Position numbers and translations under genes: made by a program
The notes under the pieces: generated by a model
Databases searched by the model: none
Told to the model about the DNA's origin: nothing
Seen by the model: only the letters and a program-made list of their open reading frames with translations
Part shown: positions 6,541 to 56,900 of the stretch, piece after piece
Layout of the letters: every line of letters starts with the position of its first letter
Position numbering within the stretch: the stretch's first letter is position 1
NCBI RefSeq assembly: GCF_001639105.2
Contig: NZ_CP015285.1
Location: 736,501 to 800,500 of the forward strand
DNA: 64,000 bases
From: Azospirillum humicireducens
Lineage (GTDB): Bacteria; Pseudomonadota; Alphaproteobacteria; Azospirillales; Azospirillaceae
Direction of reading: 5' to 3'

Positions 6541-7469
6541 TTACTCCCGGCCCTGGTAGATCTTCATGATCCGGTCGAGCAGCTTGAGGGCGTCCTCGCG
6601 CGGGCGCTGGAAGGCGTTGCGGCCGATGATCGAGCGTTGCCGCCGCCGTCACGGATGGCGCGCGCGTCCTCGAACACCGCATCCTCGCCCTTGGTGGCGC
6701 CGCCGGAGAAGACCACGATGCGGCGGCCGTTGAAGGTGCACTGCATGATGTGCTTCACCCGCTCCGCCTGGGTGGCGATCGGGATGTTCTTGGACTCGTA
6801 GACCTTCTTGGCTTCCGCCTGTTCCAGATGAGCCGACGGCAGCTTCACCTTGATGATGTGGGCGCCCAGCAGCGCGGCCATGTGGGCGGCGTAGCCGATC
6901 ACGTCGATGGCCAGCTCGCCATCCTTGGTGACGGCGCCGCCGCGCGGGTAGGACCACAGGACCGTGGCGAGGCCGTAGGACTTGGCTTCCTTCGACAGCT
7001 CACGGAACTCTTCGTACTGGTTGTACATCGAGTCGGAGCCGGGATAGATGGTGAAGCCGATGGCCGAGCAGCCCAGGCGCAGCGCGTCCTGGACCGAGGC
7101 GGTGACGGCCTGGTCGGCGTTTTCCTTCTGGGTGGACAGCGAGTTGGCGCTGTTCATCTTCAGGATCAGCGGGATCGACCCGGCGAAGGTGCCGGCGCCG
7201 GCTTCCAGCGAGCCCAGGGGAGCGGCGTAGGCGTTGCAGCCCGCGTCGATGGCCAGCTGGTAGTGGTAGTGCGGATCATAGCCGGCATCGTTGGGGCCGA
7301 AGCTGCGGGCGGGCCCGTGCTCGAAGCCCTGGTCGACCGGCAGGATCACCAGCTTGCCGGTGCCGCCGAGCTTGCCTTCCATCAGGATGCGGGCGAGGTT
7401 CGCCTTGGTGCCGGGATTGTCGCTCTCGTAGTTGGCGAGAATGTCTTTGACGCGGCGCGTGAGCTTCAT
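6541..7469 (-). CDS. Class I fructose-bisphosphate aldolase, frameshifted near its 3' end
   Basis: Class I (DhnA/FbaB-type) aldolase, Schiff-base enzyme of glycolysis and gluconeogenesis. Family sequence is clear throughout: ILPVDQGFEHGPARSF near 45-60, LWSYPRGGAVTKDGE, IIKVKLPSAH with the candidate Schiff-base lysine, and FSGGATKGEDA. The start ATG (7469-7467) follows AGGGAAGAGCCACA. After AIRDGGGN the frame breaks at about 6635: one C (plus strand) appears missing. Restoring it gives GSIIGRNAFQRPREDALKLLDRIMKIYQGRE and a stop at 6541, three bases before thiE. As read, translation ends at 6564 with an unrelated tail. This may be a sequencing error or a recent mutation. Confidence 0.85.
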
Positions 7470-38020: not shown

Positions 38021-38139
38021 CTTCAACCTCCTTCCAAGGCGCTTACGGCAGCACCACCGTGTACATGGCGGTGAATCGCGCTAAACTCGCCGGCCAAAGG
38101 GGTTGAGACGGCGCAAACTTGCGCTTCGGAGGCGGGGGA

Positions 38140-38964
38140 ATGGGCTTCACGGTTACCTTCTGGGGCGTGCGCGGCACGATTCCCTGCCCGATGGCCTCGC
38201 ATCTGGGCTTCGGCGGCAACACCTCCTGCGTCGAGGTGCGGGCCGGCAAGCAGCACATCATCATCGATGCGGGAACCGGGCTGCGCGCGCTGGGACGCAA
38301 GCTGCTGGCGGAGGGGGTGAGCAGTGCAACGCTGCTGCTGAGCCACACCCACCTGGACCATATCAGCGGCTTTCCCTTCTTCGCGCCGGCCTATACCAAG
38401 GGCTTCGGCCTGCGGGTGATCTCCGGCCATCTCACCGGCAGTCCGGATATCGAGTCGGTGATGGCGCGCCAGATGGAGCGTCCGCTGTTCCCGGTGCCGC
38501 TGCGCACGATGGGCGGCGACCTGAGCTTCCTGGAGGTGCCGCCGGGCCACAGCTTCAAGCTGGAGGGCGGGGTGCGCATCCACACCGCGGCGCTGAACCA
38601 TCCCGACGGCGCCACCGGCTACCGGATCGAATATCAGGGACGCTCGCTCGCCTATGTCACCGACACCGAACATGTGCCGGACCATCCCGACCGCAACATC
38701 CTGAACCTTGTCGACGGGGTCGACCTGCTGCTCTACGATTCGACCTATACCGACGAGGAGTGGTCGCAACGGATCGGCTGGGGCCATTCCACCTGGATGG
38801 AGGCGGTTCGGATCGCCCGCGCCGCCCATGTGAAGACTCTGGGCCTGTTCCACCACGATCCCGACCACGACGACGCCGCGATGGAACGGATCGAAGCCGC
38901 GGCGAAGGCGGAATTCCCCAACTGCTTCGCCGCGCGCGAAGGCACGACGATCTCCCTGGATTGA
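38140..38964 (+). CDS. MBL-fold metallo-hydrolase
   Basis: 274-aa metallo-beta-lactamase fold phosphodiesterase/hydrolase. The metal motif HxHxDH is present as LLSHTHLDHISGFPFF (about 73-88). Other metal ligands lie in ALNHPDGATGYR, VTDTEHVPDHP and the C-terminal LFHHDPDHDD. N-terminal FTVTFWGVRGTIPCP matches the subgroup that contains cyclic-nucleotide phosphodiesterases and tRNase Z-like proteins. ATG 38140 follows GGAGGCGGGGGA. Substrate unknown; a three-unit tandem repeat begins just before the stop codon. Confidence 0.88.
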   Translation: MGFTVTFWGVRGTIPCPMASHLGFGGNTSCVEVRAGKQHIIIDAGTGLRALGRKLLAEGVSSATLLLSHTHLDHISGFPFFAPAYTKGFGLRVISGHLTGSPDIESVMARQMERPLFPVPLRTMGGDLSFLEVPPGHSFKLEGGVRIHTAALNHPDGATGYRIEYQGRSLAYVTDTEHVPDHPDRNILNLVDGVDLLLYDSTYTDEEWSQRIGWGHSTWMEAVRIARAAHVKTLGLFHHDPDHDDAAMERIEAAAKAEFPNCFAAREGTTISLD

Positions 38965-38994
38965 TCTCCCTGGATTGATCTCCCCGGATCGATC
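38949..38994. repeat. 14-bp tandem repeat spanning a stop codon
   Basis: Two exact units GATCTCCCTGGATT (38949-38962, 38963-38976) and a diverged third, GATCTCCCCGGATC (38977-38990), are followed by a decayed fourth. The first unit includes the last codons and the TGA of the MBL gene, so the following copies repeat the gene end in the intergenic space. Confidence 0.88.
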
Positions 38995-39034
38995 CGCCTG
39001 ATCCGATCTTCCCGGACTGAATGCTCCCCATAGA

Positions 39035-40270
39035 ATGACGGCCACAATCCTGATCCTGTTCGGCGCCACCTATCTGGGCATGGCGCTGGGCCGCTTTCCC
39101 GGTCTCAGCATCGACCGAACCGGCATCGCGCTCGTCGCCGCCATCCTGCTGCTGGCAACCGGGGCGCTCGATACCGGCCAGCTGGTGGCGGCGGTCGATT
39201 TCCCGACGATCTTCATCCTGCTGGGGCTGATGATCCTGTCGGCGCAATATGCCGGCAGCGGCTTCTACGACTGGTGCGCGCTGAAGGTGGCCCAGGCGGC
39301 GCGGTCGCCGGCGCGGCTGCTGGCGGTGATCGTGCTGGTCGCCGGCGGGCTGTCGGCGGTGCTGGCGAACGACGTGGTCGTCTTCGCCATGACGCCGATG
39401 CTGTGCCTTGGCCTGCTGGCGCGCAAGCTGGACCCGCGGCCCTACCTGATCGCGCTGGCGGGCGCCGCCAATGCCGGCTCGGCGGCGACGGTGATCGGCA
39501 ATCCGCAGAACATCCTGATCGGGCAGGTCGGGCATCTCGATTTCTGGCGCTTTGCGGCGGTGTGCGGTGGCCCGGCGCTGGCCGCGATGCTCATCGTCTA
39601 CCTGACCGTCTGGTTCGTCTGGCGCGGCCGCTTCGGCGAACCCTCACGGGAGGGGATGGGCGCAGAGGTGGCGCCGGTGGCGCTCGACCGCTGGCAGCTG
39701 GGCAAGGCGGTGGCGGCGACGCTGGCGCTGCTGGTGCTGTTCACCCGCGACATCCCTCAGGAACATTCGGTGCTGCTGGTGGCAGGCGTGATGATGGTCA
39801 GCCGGCGCATGGCCAGCCGCGACATGCTGGGCATGGTGGACTGGCACCTGCTGGTCCTGTTCGCGGCGCTGTTCGCCATCAACCATGCGCTGGGGCTGAC
39901 CGGCATCCCGGCGGCGCTGGTCGGCGATCTCCAGGCTGCGGGATGGCTGCCCGACCGGCTGGCGGTGATGGTCCCGCTGGCGCTTGCCGGCAGCAACAGC
40001 ATCGGCAACGTGCCGGCGGTGATCCTGCTGCTCGCCGCCTGGCCGAACCCGCCGGAAGGGGCGCTGTACGGGCTGGCGCTGCTGTCGACGCTGGCCGGCA
40101 ACCTGCTGCTGCCGGGAAGCCTTGCCAACATCATCGTGGCGGAACGGGCAGCGGCCTCCGGCGTGCGGCTGGGGTTCGTGGAGCATGCCCGCTGCGGCGT
40201 GCCGATGGCGCTGCTGTCGATGGCGGTGGCGGCGGTCTGGTTGTGGGCCGGCGGCTGGATGGCCCCTTGA
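39035..40270 (+). CDS. SLC13/ArsB/NhaD-type (ion transporter superfamily) permease
   Basis: 411-aa inner-membrane protein with about eleven hydrophobic helices in two inverted halves. Each half has a re-entrant motif: ANDVVVFAMTPMLCLGL (about 110-126) with IGNPQNILIGQ (about 153-163), and in the second half GSNSIGNVPAVILLL. These fit anion or sodium/proton transporters of the ArsB/NhaD/DASS group. The substrate cannot be told from sequence alone. No arsenic gene is nearby. It stands 70 bases after the MBL gene. Confidence 0.85.
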   Translation: MTATILILFGATYLGMALGRFPGLSIDRTGIALVAAILLLATGALDTGQLVAAVDFPTIFILLGLMILSAQYAGSGFYDWCALKVAQAARSPARLLAVIVLVAGGLSAVLANDVVVFAMTPMLCLGLLARKLDPRPYLIALAGAANAGSAATVIGNPQNILIGQVGHLDFWRFAAVCGGPALAAMLIVYLTVWFVWRGRFGEPSREGMGAEVAPVALDRWQLGKAVAATLALLVLFTRDIPQEHSVLLVAGVMMVSRRMASRDMLGMVDWHLLVLFAALFAINHALGLTGIPAALVGDLQAAGWLPDRLAVMVPLALAGSNSIGNVPAVILLLAAWPNPPEGALYGLALLSTLAGNLLLPGSLANIIVAERAAASGVRLGFVEHARCGVPMALLSMAVAAVWLWAGGWMAP

Positions 40271-40382
40271 AGGAAGGGCTGCAAAGGACTGGCTGCAATT
40301 AACGGGCTGTATTTCGTAATCGTATTGCGATTCTGTAAAGTGCAAGACTCTTTTTCGAACTGCGACAAATGGAGTAGTCTCT

Positions 40383-41636
40383 ATGCGCACCGGGGGAGGG
40401 CGCGCTGTGAGTTTGGTCGTCCAGTTCATGGAGTTCATCGAGAGCGCGCCGAACCAGTCGCTTCGGGCGCTGAGCGACCGCGTGCTGCGCAAGTGCCGGG
40501 AGGTGACGGGGGCCGAAGCCGGAACGGTCTTCATGCTGCGCGGGCAGGGGCGGGGACGGCATCTGGAGGCGGTCAGCGCCCAGAACGACGTGATCCGCGC
40601 CAAATCCGCCCTGTTCACGGTGCCGATGAACCAGACCTCCATCGTCGGTTATGTCGCCGCCACCGGCGAGACCCTGCTGCTGGACGACGCCTACGAGATT
40701 CCCGAGGAGCGGCCCTACCGCTTCAACCCCGCCTTCGACCAGCGTACCGGCTTTCGCACCCGCTCGATCATGGCCTTCGCCCTGAAGGGGGCCCGCGGCC
40801 GGCCGATCGGGGTGGTGCAACTGATCAACCGCCGGTCCATGCCGGGGGAGGCGGGGCCGCCGATCTTCCTGCCCTACCACGAGCAGATGATCGCCCCGGT
40901 CAACCACATCGTCGGCCGCGCCCTGGAGCGGGCTGCGACGCTGGAACGGCTGACCGAACGCAACCGCGCCCTGACCAGGGAGCGCCGCCGCGTCGCCGAA
41001 CTCCAGGCGGAGACGGAGCGCGCCTTCATGGTGTCGGTCAACCTGCTGGCGCGCGCCGCCGAGGTGCATGACGAGGAGACCGGCAACCACATCCTGCGCG
41101 TCAACGAATACTCCTATGCGCTTGCTGGCTGGGCCGGCTGCAGCCGTGCCTTCTGCAAGGAAATCCGCTTTTCCGCAGCCCTCCACGATGTCGGCAAGAT
41201 GAGTGTCGATCAGGCGGTTCTGCACAAGAAGGGCCGGCTGGACGAGCGTGAACTGGCGGAGATGCAGAGGCATCCCATCTACGGCCACGACATCCTGATC
41301 GCGTCCGACCGGCTGAAGATGGCCGCGGACATTGCGCTGTGCCATCACGAGCAGTGGGCCGGCACCGGCTATCCCCAAGGGCTGAAGGGCGAGGAGATCC
41401 CGCTTGCCGCCCGCATTGTCGCCATCGCCGACTGCTATGACGCCCTGCGCAGCGCCCGTCCCTACAAGCCGTCCTTCAGCCATGAGAAGACGGTGGACAT
41501 TCTGCTGAACGGCGACGACCGGCTGGATCCCAAGGTGCATTTCGATCCCCGTCTTCTTGCGCTGTTCTCCACCCGCCATGCGGAGTTCGATGCGATCTGG
41601 GTGGCGCTGAAGGACCAGGAGAAGATCGAGGCGTGA
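40383..41636 (+). CDS. GAF-HD-GYP domain protein, predicted c-di-GMP phosphodiesterase
   Basis: 417-aa cytosolic protein. Residues ~15-180 are a GAF-like sensor domain (ALSDRVLRKCREVTGAEAGT, VQLINRR). A short coiled coil leads to an HD-GYP domain (about 215-400) with the metal motif ALHDVGKM, the downstream HxxxG region HPIYGHDIL, and GYP in HHEQWAGTGYPQGL. All catalytic signatures look intact, so c-di-GMP hydrolysis is expected. Two starts are possible: ATG 40383 and GTG 40407, the latter after GGGAGGGCGCGCT. The A/T-rich 112 bases upstream suggest a promoter. Confidence 0.9.
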   Translation: MRTGGGRAVSLVVQFMEFIESAPNQSLRALSDRVLRKCREVTGAEAGTVFMLRGQGRGRHLEAVSAQNDVIRAKSALFTVPMNQTSIVGYVAATGETLLLDDAYEIPEERPYRFNPAFDQRTGFRTRSIMAFALKGARGRPIGVVQLINRRSMPGEAGPPIFLPYHEQMIAPVNHIVGRALERAATLERLTERNRALTRERRRVAELQAETERAFMVSVNLLARAAEVHDEETGNHILRVNEYSYALAGWAGCSRAFCKEIRFSAALHDVGKMSVDQAVLHKKGRLDERELAEMQRHPIYGHDILIASDRLKMAADIALCHHEQWAGTGYPQGLKGEEIPLAARIVAIADCYDALRSARPYKPSFSHEKTVDILLNGDDRLDPKVHFDPRLLALFSTRHAEFDAIWVALKDQEKIEA

Positions 41637-41699: not shown

Positions 41700-41713
41700 T
41701 TGATCCGTATCAA
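41700..41713 (+). promoter_or_regulatory. FNR/FixK-type binding site
   Basis: TTGATCCGTATCAA is a perfect match to the TTGAT-N4-ATCAA consensus of FNR/FixK/Anr regulators. Its centre lies about 55 bases before the hypD start codon. With activation spacing of -41.5, transcription would start near 41748, just before the GAGGGAGCGACC ribosome-binding site. This suggests oxygen-limited expression of hypD. Confidence 0.8.
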
Positions 41714-41761
41714 CGCGAACGGTCGGTGTTACGGGTGAAATGGCGGGCAGAGGGAGCGACC

Positions 41762-42874
41762 ATGAAGTATGTCGAAGAGTTCCGTGATCCGGTTCTTGCC
41801 CGCAATGTCGCCGCTGCCATTGCTCGGGAGGTGCGGGCCGACCGGTCCTATCACTTGATGGAGTTCTGCGGCGGGCATACCCATGCCATCTCCCGCTATG
41901 GCATTCCCGATCTTCTGCCTGCAAATGTCCGCATGATCCATGGGCCGGGCTGCCCTGTCTGCGTTCTGCCGGTGGGGCGGATCGACGACGCCATCGCGCT
42001 TGCCCGCCGGCCGGAGGTGACCATGTGCACCTATGGCGACGTCATGCGCGTGCCAGGGTCGGGGCGGCTCAGCCTGCTGAAGGCCAAGGCGCAGGGCGCC
42101 GATGTCCGCATGGTGGTGTCGGCCGACGCCGCGGTGCGCATCGCCGCGGAGAATCCGGGGCGGCAGGTCGTGTTCCTCGCCATCGGCTTCGAGACGACGA
42201 CCCCGCCCACCGCGCTGGCGGTGCGGGCGGCCGCGGCGCAGGGGCTGACCAACTTTTCCGTCTTCTGCAACCATGTGCTCACCCCTTCGGCCATCCAGGG
42301 CATCCTGTCCGGACAGGAGGAGGGGCTGTCGCTGGACGGCTTCGTCGGGCCGGCCCATGTCTCGGTGGTGATCGGCTCGGAAGCCTATGCCCCCGCCGCG
42401 GTGGAGCATGGCAAGCCGGTGGTGATCTCCGGATTCGAGCCGCTGGACGTGCTGCAGTCGATCCTGATGCTGGTCCGCCAGATCAACGACGGGCGGGCGG
42501 AGGTGGAGAACCAGTTCACCCGCGCCGTCACCGCCGATGGCAACCGCAAGGCCCAGGCGATGGTGGCCGAGATCTTCGAGACGCGCCCGTCCTTCGAATG
42601 GCGCGGTCTGGGCAGCATCCCGCACAGCGGATTGAAGCTGCGCGAGGCCTATGCCTCCTTCGATGCCGAACGGCGCTTTCCCATCGCCGGGACCAGCGTT
42701 CCCGACCACAAGGGCTGTGATTGCGGGGCCATCCTGCGCGGGGTGAAGCGGCCGGTCGACTGCAAGCTGTTCGACACCGTCTGCACGCCGGAGAATCCGA
42801 TGGGCTCCTGCATGGTCTCGGCCGAGGGAGCCTGCGCGGCGCATTACACCTATGGACGGTTCAGAGACGCCTGA
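41762..42874 (+). CDS. hypD: Hydrogenase maturation protein HypD
   Basis: 370-aa [4Fe-4S] scaffold on which the Fe(CN)2CO cofactor of [NiFe]-hydrogenase is built with HypC. Conserved Cys signatures are present: MEFCGGHTHAISRYGI (about 33-48) with the essential CGGHTH, HGPGCPVCVLP (about 60-70), GFETTTPPTAL, and the C-terminal iron-sulfur cysteines DHKGCDCGAILRG, CKLFDTVCTPENPMGSC. It stands alone: no hypA, B, C, E or F or hydrogenase gene occurs in the window. A perfect FNR/FixK box lies upstream. Confidence 0.96.
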   Translation: MKYVEEFRDPVLARNVAAAIAREVRADRSYHLMEFCGGHTHAISRYGIPDLLPANVRMIHGPGCPVCVLPVGRIDDAIALARRPEVTMCTYGDVMRVPGSGRLSLLKAKAQGADVRMVVSADAAVRIAAENPGRQVVFLAIGFETTTPPTALAVRAAAAQGLTNFSVFCNHVLTPSAIQGILSGQEEGLSLDGFVGPAHVSVVIGSEAYAPAAVEHGKPVVISGFEPLDVLQSILMLVRQINDGRAEVENQFTRAVTADGNRKAQAMVAEIFETRPSFEWRGLGSIPHSGLKLREAYASFDAERRFPIAGTSVPDHKGCDCGAILRGVKRPVDCKLFDTVCTPENPMGSCMVSAEGACAAHYTYGRFRDA

Positions 42875-43056: not shown

Positions 43057-43878
43057 ATGACCTACAAGCACATCCTCGTTCACCTCGACAGCAGCCCCCA
43101 TGTCGAGGCGCGGCTCGATGCCGCCATCGCGCTGGCGCAGCGCCACGGTGCTTTCCTGCGTGGACTGTTCGCCCAAGGCGACCGCAACGCCACCAGCGTG
43201 ATCGCCCGCCGGTCGAGCGACCATCTCGTCGAGGCTTCGGCGCGCAGCGAGGCGCTGTTCCGGGATAAGCTGGCGGCGGCCGGTCTGCAGGGCCAATGGC
43301 ATGGATTGACCCATGGCGAATACAACCACGTCATCCGCGAGGTCATCATCTGGTCGCGCTTCGCCGACCTGACCGTGTTGGGGCAGTATGACCGCGACGC
43401 CGGAACGCAGGCGGCGCCGGAGGAGTTGAACGAGCAGGTGGTGCTGAATTCCGGCCGTCCGGTTCTGGTCGTGCCCTATGCCGGCCGCTTCCCGGTGATC
43501 GGCAAGCGCGTCGCCGTCGCCTGGAACGCGGAGCGCGAGGCCGCCCGTGCTCTGTCCGATGCCATGCCGGTGTTGGAGAAGGCCGCCGAGGTGACGGTGA
43601 TCACGGTTCTGACCCAGGCATCCGGCTCCGCGCCCGAGGCGCCGCGGGTCGGTCTTCTCGACCATCTCGCCTTCCACGGCGTGACGGCCGAGCAGACCCA
43701 TTTCACCGTCAACGACATCGGCGCGATGGACGCCCTGCTTGCCCGTGCCATGGACACCGGCGCCGACCTGCTGGTGATGGGCGCCCACGGCCACTACGGT
43801 TTCCCGTTCCTGCACCGCGGCAGCGGAACCCGGCATGTCCTGCGCACCTGCCCGGTGCCGCTGCTGCTGTCGCATTGA
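43057..43878 (+). CDS. Tandem universal stress protein (UspA family)
   Basis: 273-aa protein with two Usp domains. The first (residues ~1-145) starts KHILVHLDSS and ends GRPVLVVPYAG; the second (about 150-273) begins VAVAWNAEREAARAL and contains the ATP-binding pattern LLVMGAHGHYGFPFLHRGSGT ending PLLLSH. The first domain's glycine loop is weaker (DLTVLGQYDRDAG). ATG 43057 follows CCGGGAGGGCCCCC. Such proteins are often induced under stress and low oxygen; a weak FNR-like site is upstream. Confidence 0.92.
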   Translation: MTYKHILVHLDSSPHVEARLDAAIALAQRHGAFLRGLFAQGDRNATSVIARRSSDHLVEASARSEALFRDKLAAAGLQGQWHGLTHGEYNHVIREVIIWSRFADLTVLGQYDRDAGTQAAPEELNEQVVLNSGRPVLVVPYAGRFPVIGKRVAVAWNAEREAARALSDAMPVLEKAAEVTVITVLTQASGSAPEAPRVGLLDHLAFHGVTAEQTHFTVNDIGAMDALLARAMDTGADLLVMGAHGHYGFPFLHRGSGTRHVLRTCPVPLLLSH

Positions 43879-55892: not shown

Positions 55893-56900
55893 TCAGAAAT
55901 GATCCCAGCCGCGGCGGGTCAGCGGCAGGGCGGCCCCGGCAGCGTCCAGGACGGTGACCTCGCCGGGGCTGCCGGGGGTGAGTTCGCCGATCTCGGTGAT
56001 GGCGACCCCACTGTCCACGGCCAGGGCGGCGAGCGCATCGCGTGCCGAAGGCGGGGCAGCGAACAGAAGCTCGTAATCGTCGCCGCCGGTGATGGCCAGG
56101 GCCAGCCGGGCGGAATCGCCGTCGATGGCGCCGCGCGCCGCCTCCGACAGCGGGACCGCATCGGCCCGCAGCAGGGCGGCGCAGCCCGACTCCTCGCAGA
56201 GATGGCCGAGATCTGCGACCAGCCCGTCCGACACGTCCATGGCGCCGCTGGCGAGCCCGATCAGGCGCGGCCCCACCGTCGTGCGCGGGTCCGGCCGGCG
56301 CATGCGGCGCAGCAGCTGGGCGCGGGTCTCCTCGTCCGGGATATCGAGCCGGCCATAGGCGATCTCAAGCCCCAGGGCGGCGTCGCCGATGCTGCCGGTG
56401 ACGAAGACGCGGTCGCCCGGACGCCCACCCCAGCGGGGCAGGGCGCGGCCGGTGGGGACCAATCCGAAGGCGGTCACCGCCAGGGTGATGGGGCCGGTGG
56501 TGGAAACCGAATCGCCGCCGGCCAGCGCGATACCGAATTGCCGTTGGTCCTCGCCCAATCCTGCGGCGAAGCCTTCCAGCCAGGATTCGTCCAGCCTGCG
56601 GGGCAGGGCGGTCACCAGCGTGTAGGCCAGCGGCTCGGCTCCCATGGCGGCGAGGTCCGACAGGTTGCTGCGCATCAGCTTGGCGGCGATGTCCGCCGGC
56701 GCGTCATCGGGGAAGAAATGCACCCCGGAAACCATGGCGTCGGTGGTGACCACCAGTTCCCGCCCCTCCGGGACGCCGAACACGGCGGCATCGTCCCGCA
56801 GGCCGCGGGCACCGGGAAACCCGGCGGCCAGCGGCTTGAAGAAGCGGGTGATGCGGCCGAACTCGCCGAGAGGGGGAGAGGGGGCTTCTTCCAGAGTCAC
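55893..56900 (-). CDS. thiL: Thiamine-monophosphate kinase
   Basis: 335-aa ATP-dependent kinase forming thiamine pyrophosphate, the active cofactor (also needed by transketolase at 10-12 kb). Family blocks include GLRDDAAVF near 36-44, VVTTDAMVSGVHFFPDDAPA, LVTALPRRLDESWL, FVTGSIGDAALGLEI, and DVSDGLVADLGHLCEESG near 220-237. The start overlaps the nusB stop by four bases. The first codons carry GC-rich sequence like the repeat family (56868-56885). Confidence 0.95.
   Translation of the reverse strand: MTLEEAPSPPLGEFGRITRFFKPLAAGFPGARGLRDDAAVFGVPEGRELVVTTDAMVSGVHFFPDDAPADIAAKLMRSNLSDLAAMGAEPLAYTLVTALPRRLDESWLEGFAAGLGEDQRQFGIALAGGDSVSTTGPITLAVTAFGLVPTGRALPRWGGRPGDRVFVTGSIGDAALGLEIAYGRLDIPDEETRAQLLRRMRRPDPRTTVGPRLIGLASGAMDVSDGLVADLGHLCEESGCAALLRADAVPLSEAARGAIDGDSARLALAITGGDDYELLFAAPPSARDALAALAVDSGVAITEIGELTPGSPGEVTVLDAAGAALPLTRRGWDHF

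Follow-up and report, generated by a model that had tools for sequence, protein, structure and literature searches.

The window analysed here is a stretch of 64,000 nucleotides (C1:736501-800500) of the Azospirillum humicireducens genome, which comprises 6.86 Mb in 7 contigs, and it contains a hypD gene that follows an FNR/FixK-type box and a predicted promoter and lies between genes for a GAF-HD protein and a universal stress protein (Table 1). The open reading frame that holds hypD opens earlier, at GTG 41633, when it is delimited mechanically, but we set the start of the gene at the ATG because relatives begin with the same ATG-AAR-TAY. The product matches the hypD equivalog model TIGR00075 over residues 2-368 with 458.9 bits (cut-off 192.8) and PF01924 with 507.3 bits (cut-off 25), and the solved HypD 2z1d aligns to it with an E-value of 1.4e-83. 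The CGGHTH, GPGCPVC and GFETTTP (GFETT) motifs and the C-terminal cysteine-rich segment align with those of 2z1d, which agrees with the preliminary description of a complete gene with all iron-sulfur and CGGHTH signatures; the predicted product is an intact, ordinary HypD. The roles of these motifs are those given in PMC6886295, according to which HypC and HypD jointly make up the scaffold bearing Fe(CN)2CO. The Azospirillum gene shares its full length and its motifs with this known HypD (2z1d) and differs in its setting, as it is not adjacent to hypC or hypE.

Table 1. Features at the hypD locus (positions are those of the window)
Feature	Position	Strand	Basis
GAF + HD_5 domain protein, upstream neighbour, outside the system	40383..41636	+	domain match
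FNR/FixK-type box TTGATCCGTATCAA	41700..41713	+	exact match to TTGATNNNNATCAA
Predicted -10 element TGAAAT	41736..41741	+	AAAT spacing conserved in congeners
Predicted transcription start (plus or minus a few bases)	41748	+	box centre plus 41.5
Likely ribosome-binding site GAGGGAG (predicted)	41750..41756	+	5 bases ahead of ATG
hypD, [NiFe]-hydrogenase maturation protein HypD, 370 aa (ATG to stop)	41762..42874	+	TIGR00075, PF01924, 2z1d alignment
Universal stress protein, downstream neighbour, outside the system	43057..43878	+	Usp PF00582; start by eye

The gene had been described as an orphan, without hypA, hypB, hypC, hypE, hypF or hydrogenase genes in the window, and the search of the window for hypA, hypC, hypE, hypF and large-subunit genes bears this out; for hypB, absence from the window rests on that description and on the location of a hypB copy on C6. 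No match to hypA, hypC, the HypF zinc finger or a hydrogenase large subunit was found in the window (G000:C1:736501-800500), and the sole hypE-model match listed there (56367-56798, - strand; C1:792867-793298) scores 39.2 bits against a cut-off of 251.6 and is probably another AIR-synthase-type protein, e.g. thiamine-phosphate kinase, rather than hypE. The whole genome contains one PF01924 match, the window hypD; the preliminary description had named a second hypD within a complete hyp cluster elsewhere as the finding that, together with a lack of oxygen response of this copy, would speak against it, and a second copy was rejected, as no further PF01924 match is present in this genome.

The partners of hypD, for which a full-genome search had been proposed, were all found on other contigs, which supports the suggestion that the window gene has moved away from a hyp set whose other members are all present. 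The genome has three HypC-type genes (on C6, C3 and C7), one HypF gene (on C7), one HypE above the cut-off and four HypA matches, spread over C7, C2 and C3, of which one is partial. On C6 there is a hupK-hypB-hypC-hypE operon without hypD, in which the gene ahead of hypB matches only the C-terminal part of the large-subunit model and is taken by us to be hupK. C7 carries a small and large subunit pair, presumably of the HupUV type with a HupV-like sensor-type large subunit, a full-length HupL, a b-type cytochrome, hupD, a hupF/hypC-type gene, HupH, HybE/rubredoxin-type genes and hypF; for the small subunit of the C7 uptake enzyme, the one open reading frame tried gave no family match. On C3, hycI, hypA, hypC, a formate/nitrite transporter and a complex-I-like large subunit lie together, with formate dehydrogenase nearby; this large subunit best fits NuoD-type models, below their cut-offs, and we call the cluster group-4-like because of its neighbours hycI, hypA, hypC and the formate/nitrite transporter. 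A hydrogenase-free genome was rejected, since large-subunit matches are present. The hyp set is thus complete in pieces, the window hypD being one of these, and the canonical hypCDE adjacency is absent from this genome.

The PF00374 match at C2:143775 was not counted as a proven hydrogenase, as NuoD models fit it best. This region (G000:C2:143775-153122; L017, L276) contains the NuoD-like large subunit, membrane genes that look complex-I-like by eye, and a HypA match about 9 kb off, and it may be a group-4-related complex. In the gap between hypC and hypE on C6, inspection by eye in three frames revealed no hypD remnant and instead an inverted-repeat element. This imperfect inverted repeat (L016, about 7140-7268) is of the ATCCCCGC...GCGGGGAT / ATTCCCGC...GCGGGAAT kind, and a search of the window for one of its arms with up to 3 mismatches yielded no copy.

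Solitary hypD is a trait of the genus. HypD was found in 43 of 45 Azospirillum genomes, and HypE above the cut-off in the same 43; the two genomes without either (G016 and G039) have one weak [NiFe] large-subunit match (E 2.3e-7) in one case and none in the other. In 39 of the 43 hypD-bearing genomes, including this one, hypD is solitary, i.e., has no HypC or HypE match within 1.5 kb (the loci of G018 and G029 are cut short). Each of these 39 genomes has hypE behind hypC at another locus, and the gap between the two hits is at most 637 bp, so there is no room for a hypD between them. Seven complete clustered copies occur in six genomes (G002, G012, G017, G022, G041 and two in G043); G017 and G022 have them in addition to the solitary gene, and the remaining four have clustered copies only. 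A third hypD copy of G017 is a fragment and was left out of the counts and the tree.

The clusters of these six Azospirillum genomes (L189, L194, L195, L198, L202, L203 and L204) are of a second, distant hypC-hypD-hypE type, with a HypD that is about 50-55% identical, and they either take the place of the solitary hypD or exist beside it. The surroundings of the solitary gene vary as well. The universal stress protein gene follows hypD in 17 of the 39 genomes, called here the A. lipoferum group, the GAF + HD_5 protein was matched near hypD in only 6 of the 39, and the remaining 22 are without any of the window neighbours, save chemotaxis-receptor matches in G011 and G022. In the window, a block of metallo-beta-lactamase, CitMHS transporter and GAF-HD genes (38119-41636) stands between a chemotaxis receptor gene and hypD; this block is present only in some genomes of the A. 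lipoferum group, and in others the receptor gene is directly ahead of hypD.

The preliminary description placed a perfect FNR/FixK box about 55 bp before hypD, and this was confirmed by the exact match, the box having the symmetric TTGAT-N4-ATCAA form with its end 48 bp and its centre about 55 bp before the ATG, and by footprinting beyond this one genome. The exact pattern TTGATNNNNATCAA occurs in one place in the 64-kb window, the hypD box, and shuffled windows had a mean of 0.02 boxes, with at least one box in 2 of 100 shuffles. Genome-wide, it occurs in 12 places against 0 for the reversed control, and the relaxed pattern TTGAYNNNNRTCAA in 32 places in 6.86 Mb against 2 for the control. All 39 solitary genes of the genus have the box 35-70 bp before the start, 36 of them exactly and 3 with one mismatch (G017, G022 and G031). 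Across the aligned upstream regions of these genes cTTGATcCGnATCAAcGC is kept, with base conservation of 0.95-1.00 at the ten fixed positions of the box, and much of the flanking sequence diverges. A chance origin of the box was rejected on the basis of the shuffles, the reversed control and this conservation. No box was found in the 300 bp before the 7 clustered congeneric hypD genes (at least 3 mismatches), which is a weak control, as these genes are mid-operon.

The distance from the box to the ATG varies among the congeners, but the word AAAT starts exactly 24 bases after the end of the box in 33 of the 39, the -10-like word being absent or altered in the other 6. A box at about -41.5 is the layout of a class II FNR promoter. 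Because of the fixed AAAT spacing, we place the hypD box near -41.5, in a predicted class II layout.

For the comparison outside the genus we took the best 80 of 569 candidate hypD loci, which are hence close relatives, and counted L066 as an Azospirillum locus. Among these best 80, the closest named HypD relatives are those of A. melinis, A. lipoferum and A. oryzae (94-96% identity). HypE is near HypD in 53 of the 53 non-Azospirillum loci of this set with 2.5 kb on both sides, making hypC-hypD-hypE a steady order around hydrogenases among the best 80 of 569, and in 0 of its 10 Azospirillum loci; L090 was left out of the 53 because its HypE is lost at a cut flank. None of the 70 non-Azospirillum loci of this set has a box with at most one mismatch in the 300 bp before hypD. 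Of the 20 genomes with hypD from the remaining genera of the family, 15 have it clustered and 4 solitary, and in 1 (G055) it is located at a contig start, an artefact that was left out of the box counts and the tree. The solitary copies of these sister genera (G046, G048, G049 and G057) have no box with at most one mismatch, and the box is therefore not needed for a solitary hypD.

In the three genomes of the sister genus g3 (G049, G048 and G046; loci L215, L216 and L224), hypD is directly downstream of an apparent 5-aminolevulinate synthase gene, the family match having been made in L215 (G049) only. The one-mismatch sites in these g3 loci are not placed at the start of hypD or of hemA, and a box at either gene was therefore rejected.

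If hypD had been detached once, the solitary HypDs would be expected all on one side of one branch. The maximum-likelihood tree, rooted at the midpoint, contained 81 HypDs, 65 of them copies from the family and 16 drawn from the 70 non-Azospirillum loci. In it the 43 solitary HypDs form one side of one branch with support of 100/97, and the trait of being solitary or clustered requires a single change in all 200 bootstrap trees (100%). The solitary HypDs branch among the clustered HypDs of Magnetospirillum, Telmatospirillum, Gallionella and similar bacteria, in an order that the tree leaves unsettled, and the clustered congeneric HypDs group far away from them, together with two other members of the family (100/100). 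This fits a single detachment that predates the genus, after which a few species replaced the solitary gene by a second, complete cluster or added such a cluster to it.

The operon of the partners was examined in the 39 solitary genomes, of which 36 had its upstream region (G005, G018 and G001 lacked it). It consists of hupK-hypB-hypC-hypE in the 17 genomes of the A. lipoferum group and of hupF...hupK-hypA-hypB-(hypF)-hypC-hypE in the others, as far as the stretch reached. A TTGAY-N4-RTCAA site, the genome-wide density of which is 32 sites in 6.86 Mb, is present ahead of the operon in 34 of the 36, at a distance of about 0.6 kb from hupK in G044; the box is absent in G014 and G025. The word CARGAT follows 21 bases after this box in 27 of the 34 and is absent or altered in 7. 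The partner-operon box is mostly TTGAC...RTCAA, unlike the form at hypD, and because the box forms differ, hypD and the partner operon may answer to different members of the regulator family. In this genome, 8 of the 32 sites have an identified gene downstream. Four of these genes are ccoN, hemA (5-aminolevulinate synthase; box at C1:2322351), moaA and moeA, of which ccoN and hemA are classical low-oxygen targets, and the other four are KdgT, LysR, MgtC and a weak AurF match, none of which is, to our knowledge, a known low-oxygen gene.

We consider it very probable that the gene encodes a normal HypD that was detached once, and that a common low-oxygen regulator, rather than a common operon, now coordinates it with its partners. 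As an iron-sulfur scaffold, HypD would work with HypC (and HypE/HypF) to assemble the Fe(CN)2CO group of [NiFe]-hydrogenases, and in an ancestor of Azospirillum and some sister genera hypD would have left the gap between hypC and hypE to become a transcription unit of its own. In Azospirillum, this unit has an FNR/FixK-type box in the predicted layout of a class II activated promoter, and the operon from which hypD departed has a separate box of the same kind. Low oxygen would then act through an FnrN/FnrL-like or FixK-like protein to turn on hypD and the partner operon in parallel, and co-regulation in trans would replace operon linkage. From the sequences we infer that the predicted boxes bind FnrN/FixK, that transcription responds to oxygen, that the detachment happened once, and that this HypD serves all hydrogenases of the cell.

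It had also been suggested that the gene might serve another maturation process under low oxygen, and a second role of the solitary HypD outside [NiFe]-hydrogenase maturation would agree with its detachment from its partners and with neighbours that differ among clades. We found no support for such a role and regard it as highly improbable, because HypD and HypE co-occur fully over the 45 genomes, being jointly missing in two that have no [NiFe] large subunit or only the weak match, and because the gene is the only HypD match in its genome and fits the equivalog strongly. It is possible, though somewhat doubtful, that another regulator of the CRP/FNR family, such as FixK under FixLJ or a nitrogen-oxide-responsive protein, binds the box and that the trigger is not direct oxygen sensing of the FnrN type. 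TTGAT and TTGAC box types overlap between members of this family; the genome encodes a FixK-like protein beside an FnrL-like protein with N-terminal cysteines (193.3 and 180.2 for the FnrL-like and FixK-like proteins against an NCBIfam equivalog cut-off of 300), and 15 of the 26 Crp-type HTH matches in the genome pass the cut-off. However, the symmetric form of the hypD box and the boxes at ccoN and hemA speak against this, and a different family member would alter the regulator and leave the general idea as it is.

The detachment itself could have been neutral shuffling in multireplicon genomes, the box being carried along or re-gained without any selective effect of separateness, which we think rather unlikely. 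The scatter is not confined to hypD, as hypF and hypA likewise lie apart from hypB-hypC-hypE here, the neighbours of hypD differ among clades, and scattered hup/hyp genes were in print in 2011 (PMC3169532, in the passage on these genes). Nevertheless, all 39 solitary genes have retained the box whereas much of their flanking sequence has diverged, and this suggests that regulation is under selection, even if the move was neutral. A bolder form of the favoured reading by shared low-oxygen regulation would be that regulon linkage has stably replaced operon linkage genus-wide for one core step of [NiFe] cofactor assembly, and that the separate box of the single hypD makes HypD, on which three HypC-type chaperones and more than one hydrogenase depend, an independent oxygen gate that sets the amount of cofactor; this is speculative, and we judge it improbable.

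Control of hyp genes by low oxygen has a published precedent in the FnrN-driven hypBFCDEX operon of Rhizobium leguminosarum. PMC3534401, in which Hernando 1995 is cited, describes this operon as driven by an FnrN-type promoter, likewise a low-oxygen FNR-type promoter over hyp genes including hypD; there one promoter serves the whole operon, whereas Azospirillum has separate boxes, here on different contigs. For Azospirillum sp. B510 and A. brasilense Sp245, a genome-wide scatter of the hup and hyp genes, like that described here, was stated in 2011 (PMC3169532); the passage of that paper on these genes does not single out hypD, its detachment or any box. Magnetospirillum and other relatives, the HypDs of which are among the nearest, have a clustered hypC-hypD-hypE and no box directly before hypD. 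Scattered hup/hyp genes and Fnr control of hyp operons were thus already known, and the hypD-specific detachment is apparently unreported: in titles and the openings of abstracts, a coverage with few subscription papers, we found no report of it or of its box. With its box of the same kind retained across the genus, the detachment is a clean natural example in which to study whether an operon can give way to shared regulation when a multi-protein scaffold is built. Annotators should note that an orphan hypD in Azospirillum probably is the functional copy, which studies of hydrogenases in these plant-associated nitrogen fixers have to take into account.

Some of the box sites in this genome fall inside predicted genes. 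The box at C3:505818 was considered as a promoter element of the group-4-like cluster and rejected as weak, since it is flanked by a HypA-like gene on one side and a LysR gene on the other. With no clear gene in 3 kb, two further boxes at C1:1474169 and C1:1474316 (TTGATGCATGTCAA and TTGATCTGCATCAA) lie 147 bp apart.
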